Positions 2,249 through 14,924 of a DNA stretch of 15,389 nt are shown piece by piece. The notes below the pieces were generated by a model that was not told the DNA's origin, ran no database searches, and worked only from the letters and a program-made list of their open reading frames with translations. The position numbers and the translations under genes are program-made. The stretch's first letter is position 1. Each line of letters starts with the position of its first letter. Origin of the DNA: an archaeon (GTDB lineage Archaea > Nanobdellota > Nanobdellia > SCGC-AAA011-G17 > GW2011-AR17); NCBI GenBank assembly GCA_023245975.1, contig JAHFJF010000011.1, positions 1-15,389 of the forward strand, read 5' to 3'.

Positions 2249-2845
2249 ATGAACATATTGGCATTCAGCGATTTCCACGAGAGCAGGAAATCATTAAAGG
2301 AAGTAAAGGAAAAAGTAAGTGATGCAGATATTATTGTCTGTCATGGTGACTTGACGAACTGGGGGAGAAACCTTGAGAAGATGGTGGCTGAAATATGCTC
2401 TTGGGAAAAGACTGTCTTGTTCTTGCACGGTAATCATGAGGATGAGGAATCAATGAGGGAAGCCGTTAAGAAGTATAAAAATGCAAAATTCTTGCATATG
2501 TGTTCTTATCGCTTAGGCAATTATATTATATTCGGTTATGGCGGAGGAGGATTTGCCACTAACGATGAAGTTTTCGATAAAGTCTCAGAGAAATTCGCTT
2601 CAGAGATAAAGAAAGATGATATAGTAATCATGGTAAGCCACGGCCCACCTTATGGCAATAAAACGGATTATCTTGGGTCTGATATGGGCCATCGTGGATG
2701 CAAGTCTTATACTAAATTTATTGAGAAATACAAGCCGATGCTGTGGATATGCGGTCACCTTCACGAAACTTTTGGCAAGGTTGATTTGAAAGGTAAGACA
2801 GTAATAACTAATCCTGGGCCAGAAGGAAGAATACTGAAAGTTTAA
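2249..2845 (+). CDS. Calcineurin-like metallophosphoesterase
   Basis: A 198-residue single-domain metallophosphoesterase. All metal-binding blocks are visible: SDFHE (D8, H10), HGDLT (D34), HGNHE (N62, H63), SHGPP (H131) and GHLHE (H170, H172), ending in a typical NPGPEG strand. Such enzymes hydrolyse phosphoesters with two metal ions; the substrate (nucleotide, nucleic acid or phosphoprotein) cannot be read from the sequence. It starts at an ATG directly downstream of the shared TATA with no Shine-Dalgarno, so a leaderless message is expected. Its TAA overlaps the stop codon of the convergent Lys-rich mini-gene. Confidence 0.9.
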   Translation: MNILAFSDFHESRKSLKEVKEKVSDADIIVCHGDLTNWGRNLEKMVAEICSWEKTVLFLHGNHEDEESMREAVKKYKNAKFLHMCSYRLGNYIIFGYGGGGFATNDEVFDKVSEKFASEIKKDDIVIMVSHGPPYGNKTDYLGSDMGHRGCKSYTKFIEKYKPMLWICGHLHETFGKVDLKGKTVITNPGPEGRILKV

Positions 2846-2997
2846 CGCCTCTTCTTTTTCTTTTGCAGTGGTTTCTTGGCCTTTTGCTTCTTCTTTGGAG
2901 ATTTTTGCTTAGGTTTTGACTTAGCCTTTGGCTTAATTTTTTCTTCTTTAGGAGATTTCTTTGGTTTTAGAACCAGACGTGGCCTTGTTACTAGCAA
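2842..2997 (-). CDS. Small Lys/Pro-rich basic protein (51 aa), histone H1-tail-like
   Basis: A TTG-started frame encodes about 51 residues: a short TRPRLVLKP head followed by repeated K-P, S-P-K and K-x-K units such as KPKKSPKEEK and KSKPKQKSPKKKQK, ending KKKKRR. I count 21 Lys, 4 Arg, 7 Pro and only 2 acidic residues. The start is well supported: GAGGTGA (3003-3009 on the minus strand) lies 5 nt upstream of TTG 2997, an in-frame TGA immediately precedes the TTG, and an AT-rich TATA-like run (about 3031-3041) precedes the ribosome site. Composition resembles the disordered tails of histone H1 and other small nucleic-acid-binding proteins. Binding to DNA, RNA or ribosomes is an inference. Convergent with the phosphoesterase, sharing its terminal bases. 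Confidence 0.68.
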   Translation of the reverse strand: MLVTRPRLVLKPKKSPKEEKIKPKAKSKPKQKSPKKKQKAKKPLQKKKKRR

Positions 2998-3002
2998 TCA
3001 GT

Positions 3003-3041
3003 TCACCTCTTTTTTGTCTAAGGGTGTAAAATATATATAAT
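3003..3041 (-). promoter_or_regulatory. TATA-like box and Shine-Dalgarno of the Lys-rich mini-gene
   Basis: On the minus strand an ATTATATATATTTT run is followed about 25-30 nt later by AGAGGTGA, a near-perfect match to the archaeal anti-Shine-Dalgarno, then 5 nt to the TTG. The ribosome site is what decides the unusual start codon. Confidence 0.55.
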
Positions 3042-3047
3042 TTTCCC

Positions 3048-3803
3048 TTACTTTGTCCTAATTCCTTTAAAAAGCCTGCTAAAATTCAGGAAAATGTTAT
3101 TTTCAGTTTCGGTAGTATCCAATCCTTTGAGCTCTGCTATCTTCTTAACTGTAAAAGAAACATTTGCAGGCTCATTCCGACCGCCTTTTTCATTGGATAA
3201 GAAAGGGCTGTCCGTCTCTGTCAGTAAATGGCTTAAAGAAACAGTCTTGACCAATTCCTGGAAATGAGTTGAAAAGACTATGTTTGGCGGTATTGACATA
3301 TACCATCCATTGTCTTCTATCTTCCTAGCCAAGGATAATTTGCCAGAAAAACAATGCATATTAACAAGTTTTGCATTTGATGATACTAAGCAATCAAAAA
3401 CTTCTTGCTCAGCCTTTCTGGAATGCACTATCAATGGTATTTTCATCTTTTCAGACAATTTTATGAATCTCTCAAAAACCTCTTTTTGGATTTTCAAGTC
3501 AGGCAATAATTTCAAGTCCAGCCCAACTTCTCCTAAGGCTACAGGCTTTGAATTCTCTATGAATTTGAATTCCTTGTCAAGCTGTTCTTCTGTCATTTTA
3601 ACGGTTTCAGAAGGATAAATGCCTAATGCAGGCTTAATCAAGTGGTATTTAGCTGATAATGCTATTGTCTTTCTATTGGTCGCAGGGTCAGTCCCATTGT
3701 TAATTATAGCTATTACCTCAGCTCCGTGCGCTCTTTTGATTACTTCGTCTATGTCTTCATCAAAATCCCTAAAGTCCAAATGTGCGTGAACATCTACTAG
3801 CAT
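3048..3803 (-). CDS. TatD-family metal-dependent hydrolase
   Basis: A TIM-barrel hydrolase of the TatD group (amidohydrolase superfamily), members of which are metal-dependent DNases or phosphoesterases. Numbered from ATG 3803 (251 residues): the HAH metal motif (H6, H8), GIYPSE in place of the usual GxHPxx block (61-66), GEVGLDL (91-97, E92), VHSR (H127), MHCFSG (H150) and TETDSP (D198). All expected metal ligands are present; the divergent GIYPSE and GEVGLDLKL are lineage variants. An in-frame ATG at 3827 would add 8 residues before the conserved MLVDVHAHLD start; 3803 is preferred because the TATA centred near 3830 lies 26-28 nt upstream. The function in nucleic-acid or D-aminoacyl-tRNA processing is not decided by sequence. 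Confidence 0.88.
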   Translation of the reverse strand: MLVDVHAHLDFRDFDEDIDEVIKRAHGAEVIAIINNGTDPATNRKTIALSAKYHLIKPALGIYPSETVKMTEEQLDKEFKFIENSKPVALGEVGLDLKLLPDLKIQKEVFERFIKLSEKMKIPLIVHSRKAEQEVFDCLVSSNAKLVNMHCFSGKLSLARKIEDNGWYMSIPPNIVFSTHFQELVKTVSLSHLLTETDSPFLSNEKGGRNEPANVSFTVKKIAELKGLDTTETENNIFLNFSRLFKGIRTK

Positions 3804-3824
3804 AGCCAATTCTAACTTAAATAA

Positions 3825-3836
3825 CATTTAAATAAC
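3825..3836. promoter_or_regulatory. Shared bidirectional TATA box for the divergent pair 3803(-)/3860(+)
   Basis: The palindrome ATTTAAAT (3826-3833), extended to TTTAAATAA on the plus strand and TTATTTAAAT on the minus, lies about 26-28 nt from the minus start 3803 and 29-31 nt from the plus start 3860. No other TATA-like element of similar quality is present between the genes, and neither gene has a Shine-Dalgarno, so one element probably serves two leaderless transcripts. Confidence 0.62.
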
Positions 3837-5262: not shown

Positions 5263-6194
5263 GATATGCCTTTTACCTGTCAGGTGAGAATTTAAAGCTT
5301 GGAATTGAGGAGATAAAAGCATTTGTTAATAACGTTGAAGTAAATGGAAGAATTGCAATTGTCGATTGTGAGAAATTTGATTTTACTAGGCTGGCATACA
5401 CTAAAAAAGTAACTCGCTTGATTGTAGAATGCAAAGAGAAGGAATTGCTTAAGAAACTAAAATCTGCGGATTTTGGTATAACAGGCGCTTATTGTGTTCG
5501 GGCAATTAATTTCAGTGAGAAAAAGGCAGCTGATGCAGTTTGGAATTCTTTTAAAGCGCCAGAAGTTAATCTTGAGAAACCGGAACATGTCATACAGGTA
5601 ATTTGCGAGAATGGTTCCTGTTATTCAGGAATATTGGAGTATGATAACCAAGAAGAATTCTCAAAAAGAAGGCCGCATTTAAGGCCTGGTTTCCATCCAA
5701 GTTCAATGTTGCCGAAATTAGCGAGGGCATTAGTTAACCTTTCTAGGATTAAGGAAGGCAATACTTTATTAGATCCATTTTGTGGCACTGGTGGCATATT
5801 GATTGAAGCAGGTTTTATGGGAATTCAAACAATCGGTCTCGACATTAATGAAGAGATGCTATTTCTGGCAGAAAGAAATCTAAAGAAATATACGATTAAA
5901 AATTATCAATTAACAAAGGGCGATGCAACAAAAGAATTGCCGGAATGTGATGCCATCGTAACAGACCTCCCATATGGGAAGTCATCATCTTTATTTGGGA
6001 AAAATCGCATCAATCTTTATAATAAATTCCTGAAAAATGCATACAGCAGATTAAATAGTGGCCGCTATTGTGTTTTAATGATTCCGAACATTGTAAATGT
6101 TAGCATTGGAAAATTTAAGAAAGAATCTGAGATAGAGCATTATGTAAATAAGTCCCTTACAAGAAAGATATTGGTTCTTAAGAAACTAAATTAA
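5259..6194 (+). CDS. Trm11/Trm-G10-type tRNA guanosine methyltransferase
   Basis: A 311-residue class I methyltransferase of the archaeal Trm-G10/Trm11 group (COG1041-like), which makes N2-methyl- or N2,N2-dimethylguanosine at tRNA position 10. Residues 1-100 form a THUMP-like RNA-binding region beginning FYLSGENLKLGIEEI. The family-typical linker KRRPHLRPGFHPSSMLPKL (136-153) leads into the SAM site LDPFCGTGG (171-179) and GLDINEEM (193-200). The catalytic DxPYG motif appears as TDLPYGKSS (235-243). Last gene of the trmJ operon, with ATGA coupling to its upstream neighbour. Its 3' end overlaps by 9 nt the convergent membrane protease gene. Confidence 0.88.
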   Translation: MRYAFYLSGENLKLGIEEIKAFVNNVEVNGRIAIVDCEKFDFTRLAYTKKVTRLIVECKEKELLKKLKSADFGITGAYCVRAINFSEKKAADAVWNSFKAPEVNLEKPEHVIQVICENGSCYSGILEYDNQEEFSKRRPHLRPGFHPSSMLPKLARALVNLSRIKEGNTLLDPFCGTGGILIEAGFMGIQTIGLDINEEMLFLAERNLKKYTIKNYQLTKGDATKELPECDAIVTDLPYGKSSSLFGKNRINLYNKFLKNAYSRLNSGRYCVLMIPNIVNVSIGKFKKESEIEHYVNKSLTRKILVLKKLN

Positions 6195-7385
6195 AGTTAT
6201 CAAGAAAAATAATGATTTAAACAGGAATGCAAATAATTTTATCAGCCATGGCAATAGGTTTATGAAAATTAGCGATAATAGTAGATAGCTGACTGCGATA
6301 AAGACCTTTTTCGCTTTTTCTTCGTTCTTGAGCAATGCAGTTGCGCCAATAAGGAACATCTTGCCGCCATCAATTGGTCCCAAAGGCAAGAGATTAAACA
6401 AGCCAACGCCCAAGCTGATTATGAAAAGCCATACGAACAAGAGATTAATCCACAGCAATGCAAATGGAATCTTTCCCAAGAAGGCGAGGCTATCCCTTAC
6501 ATCATATTTCTGCTTGAATCCAGTAACACCGAAAAATCCTTTTTCTGGGGAATCCGGATTTGCAGCAAGCTTTACTGAATATTCTCCCTTGTCTGTAAGA
6601 ATGGTTGCAGTGTCGCCTGGCTTAAATTTAGCTGTTGCATCCGCAAATTCATCAATGTCGCTTGTTGAAATCGAATTTACTCCAGTTATTACGAATGGCA
6701 ATTCAATCCCAGTCTTTGACATGGGATAATTCTCAACAAATGCAGTTACTATCAAGCCTTGAGGCTGGAATGCATAAGAGATTGCAGGAGACAGTGCAAA
6801 AGAAAGTATAAGCATGAAAATAATCCCAGACACAAGATTTGAAAATGGCCCTGCTGAAAGAACTGCAAGCTGCTTGAATTTTGATTTTTCTGCCATTTGC
6901 TTGTCATCAGGCTCTACAAACGCTGCAAGTAATGGGCCTAAGAAAGCAAATCCAGAGCTTTTTACTTTTATGTTATACAACCTTGCATAAATCCCATGTG
7001 AGAATTCATGAACCACTGCCACTACAAATAATGCGATTACCCAATGCCAGAAAGACAAGGCAGGGGCTCCTGGAATATCAATGCCAGGCAATACAGGCGA
7101 TAATGGCGGTGCAGTTCCTGGCACTGCGATATATTTCAAGGTTTCTTTTACAAGAAAATATAAGATAAATCCCATTCCAAGAAAGCCAGTTAAAACTGAC
7201 AAGTATGAAATATAATTCAATAGCCGTGGGAATTTCTTGGCTATTCGCCCCATTAGGTTTATGCCCAATTTAGATTTGTACATTATAAATATTTTGCCTT
7301 GTACTTCGAACTTATTCTTATAGAGCGCATAAATTAATAGAATGAAACCGTAAAATATTCCTAATGAGATTAAATCCCAATTCAT
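6186..7385 (-). CDS. Site-2-type intramembrane protease (M50) with PDZ-like domain
   Basis: A 399-residue polytopic membrane protein. It has TM segments near 5-22 and 62-80, then a segment with the zinc motif VVHEFSHG (H126, E127, H130), a cluster PFSNLVSGIIFMLILSF (180-196), and the second M50 motif NLLPLGPIDGGKM (331-343, D339) in a later TM segment, followed by two C-terminal hydrophobic segments. Between the two catalytic halves, about residues 205-290, lies a PDZ-like insert (VNSISTSDIDEFADATAKFKPGD...). Site-2 proteases cut transmembrane substrates, often anti-sigma or transcription factors; no substrate is apparent here. Shine-Dalgarno-like GAGG lies 8 nt before the ATG and a TATA-like TTAAAT overlaps the end of the upstream gene. 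The tail overlaps the convergent Trm11-like gene by 9 nt. Confidence 0.9.
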   Translation of the reverse strand: MNWDLISLGIFYGFILLIYALYKNKFEVQGKIFIMYKSKLGINLMGRIAKKFPRLLNYISYLSVLTGFLGMGFILYFLVKETLKYIAVPGTAPPLSPVLPGIDIPGAPALSFWHWVIALFVVAVVHEFSHGIYARLYNIKVKSSGFAFLGPLLAAFVEPDDKQMAEKSKFKQLAVLSAGPFSNLVSGIIFMLILSFALSPAISYAFQPQGLIVTAFVENYPMSKTGIELPFVITGVNSISTSDIDEFADATAKFKPGDTATILTDKGEYSVKLAANPDSPEKGFFGVTGFKQKYDVRDSLAFLGKIPFALLWINLLFVWLFIISLGVGLFNLLPLGPIDGGKMFLIGATALLKNEEKAKKVFIAVSYLLLSLIFINLLPWLIKLFAFLFKSLFFLITLI

Positions 7386-7930: not shown

Positions 7931-8323
7931 TTACTTTACCTGCTTGATTAGCTTTTCTCCCAATACGATCCAATAGTTTACTTGGGACCCTTCTTTGATT
8001 TGGCCCTTGAACTCTTCCGGTATTGGCAGGTCAAATGTTTCGTAAGTGTCCATGTCCATTATGTTTGCTTTATCTTCATGTACTGAAAGCACTTGTGCAT
8101 TCTTTTTCTCTACGATTGGAATTTGTACGTTATCATGCCCTGGCATGATTTTTATAATCTTTCTTCCATCCTTTATGGCTATCGCCTCTACCCTGCATTT
8201 GGCATGGCCGTGCTTTCCTGTCCTTGATATTTGTGAGGATTTTACTTCGCATGCGATACCGTCAAAAACTACGAATCTTCCGGGCTTTAATGAGGTTGCT
8301 ATGTCCTGTGTAGTATTGTCCAT
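7931..8323 (-). CDS. eif5a: Translation initiation/elongation factor aIF5A
   Basis: A 130-residue aIF5A, the archaeal orthologue of eIF5A/EF-P that relieves ribosome stalling on polyproline and other difficult sequences. The hypusination loop SRTGKHGHAK is present, with K37 the modified lysine, and the SH3-like N-domain (about 1-68) is followed by an OB-fold C-domain (about 70-130). A deoxyhypusine synthase must be encoded elsewhere; none is in this window. A TATA-like TTTATATA (about 8348-8355) is centred 28-29 nt upstream of the ATG, so the message is predicted to be leaderless with its own promoter inside the gap after the DUF460 gene. First gene of the aIF5A-L40e-GGCT cluster. Confidence 0.96.
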   Translation of the reverse strand: MDNTTQDIATSLKPGRFVVFDGIACEVKSSQISRTGKHGHAKCRVEAIAIKDGRKIIKIMPGHDNVQIPIVEKKNAQVLSVHEDKANIMDMDTYETFDLPIPEEFKGQIKEGSQVNYWIVLGEKLIKQVK

Positions 8324-8981: not shown

Positions 8982-9140
8982 CTAAAATGAAACATCTGTT
9001 ATTATATTGTTGGAATTGCTCATTACAAACCTCAAGGCATCCTTGTCAGTTGCCCGTGGGTTTTTCTTCCGATAGTCTAATGCCATATTGGCAGCCGCCA
9101 CCATTGCTTTTTTAGCTACTTCTTCTGTCATTCTGTCCAT
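8982..9140 (-). CDS. Small protein of unknown function, copy 1 of a tandem paralogous pair (52 aa)
   Basis: A 52-residue hypothetical protein with the frame MDRMTEEVAKKAMVA... It aligns end to end with the neighbouring gene upstream: shared positions include KKA..AAA..ALD (about 10-22), KNP (26-28), D.DA (32-35), V..N (39-42), I (46) and VS near the C-terminus. The first half is probably one amphipathic helix and the second half another. The ATG directly follows the TAA of the upstream paralogue, and GAGGTG about 9 nt upstream (inside that gene's last codons) is its ribosome site, so the two are translationally coupled. I recognise no family and propose no function. Confidence 0.7.
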   Translation of the reverse strand: MDRMTEEVAKKAMVAAANMALDYRKKNPRATDKDALRFVMSNSNNIITDVSF

Positions 9141-9293
9141 TTACCATGACACCTCTTTAAGTATGCTGTTGGCATTTACTACGACATGTCCTATTGCTTC
9201 ATCATCCATAGATTCAGGATTTTTTCTCTTAAAGTCCAGAGCTTTTGAAGCTGCCGCAATGATTGCTTTCTTAACCAAAAATTCATTCACCAT
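9141..9293 (-). CDS. Small protein of unknown function, copy 2 of a tandem paralogous pair (50 aa)
   Basis: A 50-residue hypothetical protein (MVNEFLVKKAIIAAASKALDF...) paralogous to the gene that follows it. Shared core: KKA-x2-AAA-x2-ALD, KNP, D-x-A, V-x2-N, I and a terminal VSW/VSF. Ribosome site AAGGTGAT lies 5 nt before the ATG, and a TATA-like TTTATTAAT (about 9337-9346) precedes it in the gap after the coiled-coil gene. The nucleotide sequences have diverged, so the duplication is old, yet the two are fused stop-to-start with no spacer. Possible roles as hetero-oligomer subunits are inference only. Confidence 0.7.
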   Translation of the reverse strand: MVNEFLVKKAIIAAASKALDFKRKNPESMDDEAIGHVVVNANSILKEVSW

Positions 9294-14335: not shown

Positions 14336-14369
14336 AAAAAAAATTTCAATTATGCAAGGAGTTTATGAA

Positions 14370-14924
14370 ATGGCATTTGAAATGGTTCCCAAGGAAATGT
14401 TTTTCACGCATGGCGTTGGAAGGCACAAGGATAAGCTCTCATCTTTTGAATTAGCATTGAGGGATGCAGGAATTGAAATTTGCAATTTAGTAATGGTTTC
14501 CAGCATTTTTCCTCCGCATTGCAAGATAATACCCAAAGAAGAAGGAATAAAAAAATTAACTCCTGGCCAAGTAACATTTTGCGTAATGGCGAGAAGCGAG
14601 ACTAATGAGCCGAATAGATTAATAGCGGCATCTATAGGATTAGCAGTCCCCAAAGATGAAAGTGGTTATGGTTACCTTTCTGAGCACCATACGTATGGAG
14701 AAACAGCTCACAGGGCTGGAGAATATGCGGAAGATTTGGCTGCAACAATGCTAGCTACTACATTAGGCATAAAATTTAACCCTGAAACAGAGTGGGATGA
14801 AAGGGAACAATTATTCAAGATGTCAGGAAAAGTATTGAAGACGATGGACGTAACCCAATCTGCAGAAGGGGACAAGGATGGCTTGTGGACAACAGTAGTG
14901 GCAACGGCAATTTTGCTTTTCTGA
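14370..14924 (+). CDS. pdaD: Pyruvoyl-dependent arginine decarboxylase
   Basis: Decarboxylates arginine to agmatine, the first step of archaeal polyamine synthesis. The proenzyme cleaves itself at a Ser-Ser bond to give beta and alpha chains, the new alpha-chain N-terminus becoming the pyruvoyl group. Numbered from ATG 14370 (184 residues): [19 protein letters not shown] (5-23), the cleavage region [14 protein letters not shown] (40-53, pyruvoyl precursor S45), [34 protein letters not shown], and the terminal [17 protein letters not shown]. All conserved blocks are intact. An in-frame ATG at 14352 adds 6 residues; I prefer 14370 because AAGGAG precedes it by 8 nt and the TATA lies only about 22 nt before 14352. 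Agmatine products feed tRNA agmatidine and polyamines, and polyamines feed hypusine on aIF5A; that link is by pathway knowledge. Confidence 0.92.

Follow-up and report, generated by a model that had tools for sequence, protein, structure and literature searches.

A tiny, strongly basic gene missed by gene finders recurs behind TatD in an order of Nanobdellota archaea

A small polybasic gene between TatD and a phosphoesterase

The DNA analysed here, referred to as the window, is a stretch of 15,389 nucleotides from a Nanobdellota archaeon (contig JAHFJF010000011.1, genome G000), and its features are collected in Table 1. The minus strand between the genes of a TatD-family nuclease and a calcineurin-like metallophosphoesterase carries a real gene that is tiny, encodes a strongly positive product and has been missed by gene finders. 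A complete small gene had been claimed here by a sequence-only reading of the window, and its TATA-like run, GAGGTGA Shine-Dalgarno site (SD), TTG start and 51 codons were all found at 2842-3040. The stop codon of the ORF (2844-2842) shares bases with that of the convergent phosphoesterase gene (2843-2845), and an in-frame TGA directly before the TTG makes an earlier start codon impossible in this frame. The composition is also as that reading had described it: Lys and Arg account for 25 of the 51 residues (49%), the only acids are two Glu, and two SPK and three KPK units are present.

Table 1. Features of the small gene and its conserved neighbourhood in the window
Feature	Position	Strand	Remark
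Calcineurin-like metallophosphoesterase gene	2249..2845	plus	convergent downstream anchor
51-aa Lys/Pro-rich ORF	2842..2997	minus	window's member of the polybasic family; TTG start; syntenic relatives
GAGGTGA Shine-Dalgarno site (SD)	3003..3009	minus	5 nt ahead of the TTG
TATA-like promoter element TTATATATATTTTA	3027..3040	minus	between the TatD stop and the SD
TatD-family nuclease gene	3048..3827	minus	upstream syntenic anchor; same strand as the small gene
Site-2-protease-like gene (name presumed from sequence features)	6186..7385	minus	in conserved neighbourhood
aIF5A/eIF5A gene	7931..8323	minus	in conserved neighbourhood

GAGGTGA is scarce in the genome, with 8 occurrences on both strands of 312 kb (40 other contigs plus the window), and GAGGTG stands at a candidate start in 2 of 268 long ORFs. 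SD-led polybasic ORFs number just two in these 312 kb, namely the window ORF and the gene of ribosomal protein eL41. To gauge chance, the spacer was shuffled 5000 times with dinucleotides preserved, and only the first ORF of at least 40 aa was scored in each shuffle. Such an ORF arose in 497 of the 5000 shuffled spacers, a single one of which reached a K+R content of at least 0.45, and GAGGTGA stood ahead of none of the 497.

Elsewhere in the window, the minus strand at 1316-2215 encodes a 299-aa protein with no Pfam match at E <= 0.01, in which a metalloprotease-like motif, HEIMH, can be made out by eye. The adjacent minus-strand ORFs at 8982-9140 and 9141-9293 (52 and 50 aa) look alike by eye and may have arisen by tandem duplication of a gene for a small, uncharacterised protein.

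Sequence searches

The window ORF shares words with seven candidates among 5.8 billion predicted proteins, none of which reaches E <= 10 in a search that low complexity limits, and it is therefore seemingly absent from public protein sets. No model in Pfam or NCBIfam matches it, and a protein search of 99 genomes of the order returned only the ORF itself and a hit in G020 at E = 0.08, which is at chance level and contains internal stops. A 71-aa relative from G004 had 6279 candidates, none passing E <= 0.001, whereas a 131-aa relative from G041 had, among its best 7995 candidates, at least 25 proteins at E <= 10 (top 1.7e-6), several of which carry precomputed HC2 domains. A scan of 2780-3120 against Rfam gave two opposite-strand matches, both far under gathering scores, and no title or abstract start among the open-access papers retrieved describes these peptides.

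Syntenic relatives behind TatD

Because the composition of the ORF defeats protein searches, relatives were sought by synteny. Searches by tblastn with the window's genes revealed the order eIF5A, site-2 protease, TatD, small gene and convergent phosphoesterase in many families across the order, with extra genes interspersed in some of them, and this recurring order on either side places the window's gene by both flanks. TatD was located in 84 of the 99 genomes, the window's own included, with no same-genus relative among them; a TatD search in wider genome contigs found only two distant bacterial loci. Loci were considered usable if the TatD stop was present and followed by at least 400 nt, which applied to 79 of the 84 and left out G045 (TatD stop not on the contig) and G007, G062, G064 and G083 (less than 400 nt downstream).

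An SD-led polybasic ORF (at least 37% basic residues) on the same strand as TatD is present in 40 of the 79 usable loci, with its SD 25-152 nt past the TatD stop. An SD-like motif was required by the filter, so that its presence in the 40 members is by construction; within this prefiltered set the motif is GAGGTG in 37 and GGGGTGA in 3. No SD-led polybasic ORF was found across 83 loci in the controls, for which the 600 nt downstream were read on the opposite strand and the upstream flank (at least 600 nt long in 81 of the 83) on both. The 40 TatD-linked members range from 8 to 131 aa, 22 of them being no longer than 27 aa, and start with ATG (33), GTG (4) or TTG (3). A scan without the SD requirement added only two clearly polybasic frames: that of G062, which lies outside the count and runs off the contig end, and the 71-aa ORF of G004, a genome of the window's own family, which follows TatD without an SD and is perhaps leaderless. 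Also outside the count, G064 carries an ORF-less unit and G083 a promoter-like stretch only.

The gene lies behind TatD in 12 of 18 families, including all 11 loci of family f16, all 6 of f8 and 8 of 9 of f4, and is found at the TatD slot in none of f2, f6, f10, f13, f18 and f19. In G310, an f16 genome outside the count, no such gene lies within 260 nt past TatD, and G311 is likewise outside the count. TatD itself lies elsewhere in G018 and G037 (f2), where the site-2 protease and the phosphoesterase still flank a polybasic gene. Among the 15 usable loci of the window's own family, the SD-led form occurs in 1, and the gene in 2 with the copy of G004.

The sequence-only reading had proposed a hidden TTG-start gene belonging to this lineage, and the equivalent spacer of relatives does contain an equivalent gene, of which the window ORF, immediately past TatD on its strand and with a GAGGTG-type SD, is the local copy; the gene is lineage-wide. 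The conservation in related spacers that it had proposed as a test holds in part, the gene being present in 40 of the 79 loci and its flanks persisting without it in the other 39 (the SD-less copy of G004 counted as missing). The loss despite conserved flanks that it had named as counter-evidence does occur in part, both in three f12 loci (below) and in the window's own family, where 13 of 15 loci lack the gene even with G004 counted as having it. This scarcity among close relatives, together with the low complexity of the sequence and the lack of a convincing relative in sequence searches, would fit a spurious ORF of an A/G-rich spacer. Such an origin is nevertheless extremely improbable, since 40 of 79 loci have a polybasic ORF in the syntenic position and the controls have none, a scarce GAGGTGA sits at the right place and a comparable frame appeared in just 1 of 5000 shuffles.

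Copies outside the TatD slot

The pattern GAGGTGA-(1-12)-ATGGY-N4-ARRARR matches 54 of the 99 genomes of the order, and its reverse matches one. In a sample of the class that re-includes the genomes of the order, it matches 89 of 281 genomes, compared with 5 for the reversed pattern. Translation of 79 distinct matches within the order gave 60 polybasic peptides, 4 f8 proteins in which a polybasic tail adjoins a hydrophobic region, and 15 unrelated proteins. Of the 20 matches translated from beyond the order (those with a locus), polybasic and other products made up 10 each. The family as analysed below comprises 86 members, of which 40 are TatD-linked and 46 are not; ten of the 86 lie outside the order, and three from within it are C-x-x-C forms.

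Several of these copies have peculiarities of their own. Three f9 genomes contain two or three copies in tandem (L155, L156, L157), each polybasic gene with a TATA-like box and GAGGTGA, beside a membrane protein gene that we take to be Lgt-like; none of the 8 f9 genomes searched for TatD yielded it. In f8, L147, L148, L149 and L150 encode proteins with a polybasic N-terminal tail and a similar C-terminal hydrophobic region, which is probably a membrane region. The polybasic peptides of L108, L141, L142 and L165, the last of them Cys-rich, carry terminal or internal C-x-x-C motifs (CEFC, CEYC, CKYC) and are possibly metal-binding.

Transcription signals and constraint on the family

A TATA-like hexamer lies 18-75 nt before the SD in 71 of the 86 members, compared with a mean of 39.4 and a maximum of 51 in shuffles. 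The 3' end folds with z < -1.5 in 31 of the 40 TatD-linked members (mean -2.51) and in 13 of the 46 others (mean -0.75), compared with 4 of 80 other genes (mean +0.18), and the 40 nt past the stop have a T content of 0.59 in members compared with 0.37. The window copy has no terminator-like fold at its 3' end (z = +0.43). The gene, its syntenic family and the promoter- and terminator-like signals of its relatives are thus supported by computation.

The charge of the product is conserved. The 40 TatD-linked members contain only 2 acidic residues in 1365, both of them in the window ORF, have a median net charge of 0.61 per residue and, in 39 of 40 cases, end with at least three basic residues among the last four. 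The window copy has more Pro and less Arg than its relatives, and at the short end of the family stand oligocations such as MAAKKKAKKRR. Codon differences in 17 pairs, hand-chosen and mostly from the same genus or family (G055 with L179 spans two orders), comprise 106 synonymous and 54 nonsynonymous changes, compared with an expected synonymous share of 0.22, or 0.33 counting transitions only, although matching codons through the protein alignment biases the count towards synonymous changes where the sequence is repetitive. Among peptides of 11-12 aa, five pairs of equal length, which share members, differ by 11 synonymous and 0 nonsynonymous changes. All four third bases are used in Ala and Thr codons, and both AGR and CGN are used for Arg (82 of the 86 members covered). 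Computation thus supports constraint on the amino acids of the family.

This constraint bears on the proposal that the transcript is the conserved product, with a 5' hairpin, a GAGGUGA complementary to the anti-SD and a terminator hairpin acting as a small RNA in which the ORF would be secondary. The f12 loci of G044, G064 and G087 (L233, L238, L239) would fit such an RNA, in that they retain a TATA-like box, a GAGGTG-like motif (GAAGTGA in G064), a 5'-hairpin-like sequence recognised by eye and a 3' hairpin-like end around no polybasic ORF. A fold with z < -1.5 directly before the SD in 9 of the 17 TatD-linked members of f12 and f16 would fit as well, as would the frequent use of the last Lys/Arg codons as an arm of the 3' stem. 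Outside those members, however, the 5' fold is weak (z < -1.5 in 12 of 69, mean -0.37), the simple 5' hairpin does not recur when the units of G044 and G087 are folded whole, and the synonymous excess, the varied third positions of Ala and Thr and the mixed Arg codons point to selection on amino acids, making an RNA product very unlikely. The three ORF-less units, in which promoter-like and hairpin-like sequence surrounds no polybasic frame, speak against a purely peptide-based account and are either relics or functional RNAs; the TatD-linked unit of G064 may be a relic, as that genome has two further copies that are coding.

Comparison with known basic proteins

Because length is free (8-131 aa) and charge is conserved, bulk charge rather than a fold is suggested to be what is selected. 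SPK and KPK units are motifs of histone H1, and the window ORF resembles the Lys/Pro-rich C-terminal tail of eukaryotic H1 in these units and in overall composition (at least ~40% basic, few acids, low complexity), with a K+R content of 0.49 and 2 acids. Eukaryotic H1 also possesses a globular winged-helix domain; no winged-helix match at E <= 1 was found in the ORF or four relatives, and common ancestry has no support here. The family also resembles chlamydial HC2 and other bacterial H1-like proteins, the C-terminal tail of AlgP among them, in that Lys/Arg-rich repeats are interspersed with Ala, Thr, Val or Pro and acids are nearly absent. In the window ORF and the four relatives scanned, the only Pfam match is that of a 131-aa relative to the HC2 model (PF07382) at E = 2e-8 and 35 bits, which lies under the cut-off of 40; the window ORF itself has none. 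Scores against the bacterial H1-like NCBIfam models NF038052 and NF038053 (23.8 and 17) are also under the cut-offs of 80 and 135, and more than half of the TatD-linked members, at 27 aa or fewer, are unlike bacterial H1-like proteins in size. The label of a histone-H1-tail-like protein given by the sequence-only reading is thus apt for composition and for the presumed mode of action, but formal family membership falls short.

A core histone (PF00808 match, E <= 0.001) is also encoded by G000. Known archaeal nucleoid-associated proteins (NAPs) are usually encoded in single-gene operons (PMC7613761), and the window gene, with 51 aa and a TATA-like box and SD of its own, appears to share their small size and this arrangement. 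The same report describes WP_019177984.1 of Methanomassiliicoccales as a small, Lys-rich candidate NAP in a single-gene operon (PMC7613761); it has 74 aa, is predicted to adopt a novel fold and has reported orthologues in other genomes, and it is set beside the window ORF by description only.

The eL41/eS32 identity was rejected, since G000 possesses a separate eL41 gene and the window ORF has no PDB match. This eL41 gene (contig C27, locus L219, minus strand, start 3180, 34 aa) matches PDB 6tmf_c at E = 0.002 and, like the window ORF, is tiny, basic, TTG-started and led by a strong SD (GGAGGT), and it is missed by its own Pfam model. PF05162 (eL41) matched nothing over its cut-off in the 99 genomes or in control genomes, the model being too weak, and the eL41/eS32 gene at L219 is probably unannotated in the lineage.

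Candidate functions of the polycation

Conserved charge, the single-gene operons of archaeal NAPs and the core histone of G000 together favour an H1-tail- or protamine-like nucleic-acid binder, a reading to which we give an even chance. The small gene would be transcribed independently and, with its unusually strong SD, which hints at an abundant peptide, would yield an intrinsically disordered polycation. We infer that this product would bind nucleic acid by charge and without sequence specificity, most likely DNA, which it may neutralise and condense beside the core histone of the same genome, in the manner of an H1 tail, chlamydial HC2 or protamine. At 8-14 aa, the smallest members are very short to act as DNA condensers, and presence of the gene at the TatD slot has no clear link to the core histone, which was found in 32 of the 40 genomes with the gene and 25 of the 39 without.

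The sequence-only reading had left room for a chromatin, RNA or ribosome-associated protein, from which eL41/eS32 specifically drops out, its gene lying elsewhere in the genome. A peptide acting on RNA, associated with the ribosome or rRNA and like eL41/eS32 or bTHX in size and charge, would accord with the 22 members in the range of the tiniest ribosomal proteins and with a GAGGTG-type SD that is unusual in the genome; bTHX is comparable in size and charge to such a basic peptide. We nonetheless consider it unlikely, since one syntenic locus spanning 8 to 131 aa would hardly be tolerable for a ribosomal protein site, the slot lacks the gene in about half of the loci, some genomes carry two or three copies, and eL41 is already encoded separately.

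An encoded counter-ion, in which an oligolysine peptide replaces polyamines or pairs with a polyanion such as polyphosphate, is suggested by the oligocationic nature of the shortest members. A search for spermidine synthase (PF01564) found none in G000, whose genome is 76% complete; the model scored above its cut-off in 17 of 60 genomes searched, with E < 1e-15 in three, and the remaining matches are possibly other methyltransferase-like proteins. AlgP, an H1-like protein of bacteria, associates with polyphosphate granules and possesses an N-terminal helical domain (PMC9239181); members of the present family have no such domain. The long, repeat-rich members are unlike polyamine substitutes, however, and the window itself may provide for agmatine synthesis through an arginine decarboxylase-like ORF recognised by eye (14352-14924), so a counter-ion of this kind appears quite improbable.

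The H1-tail- or protamine-like polycation may belong to a broader class, which we propose tentatively and regard as somewhat doubtful: annotation-invisible, stand-alone genes for ultra-short oligolysine/oligoarginine peptides (8-14 aa, with repeats extending to 131), each with its own promoter, near-consensus SD and terminator, whose products would serve the nucleoid or RNA as genetically encoded counter-ions. The window gene would then lie at the ancestral locus, and the transcript would have outlived the frame in some lineages.

Implications

As genes of this kind are short and of low complexity, homology searches largely fail on them, and a conserved and possibly abundant component of the cell could go unseen. 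Synteny, SD and charge together provide a simple recipe for finding such genes, and the natural series from 8 to 131 aa offers a test of the minimum length of a functional polycation gene. If the favoured reading is true, H1-like or protamine-like polycations would exist in archaea beside core histones.
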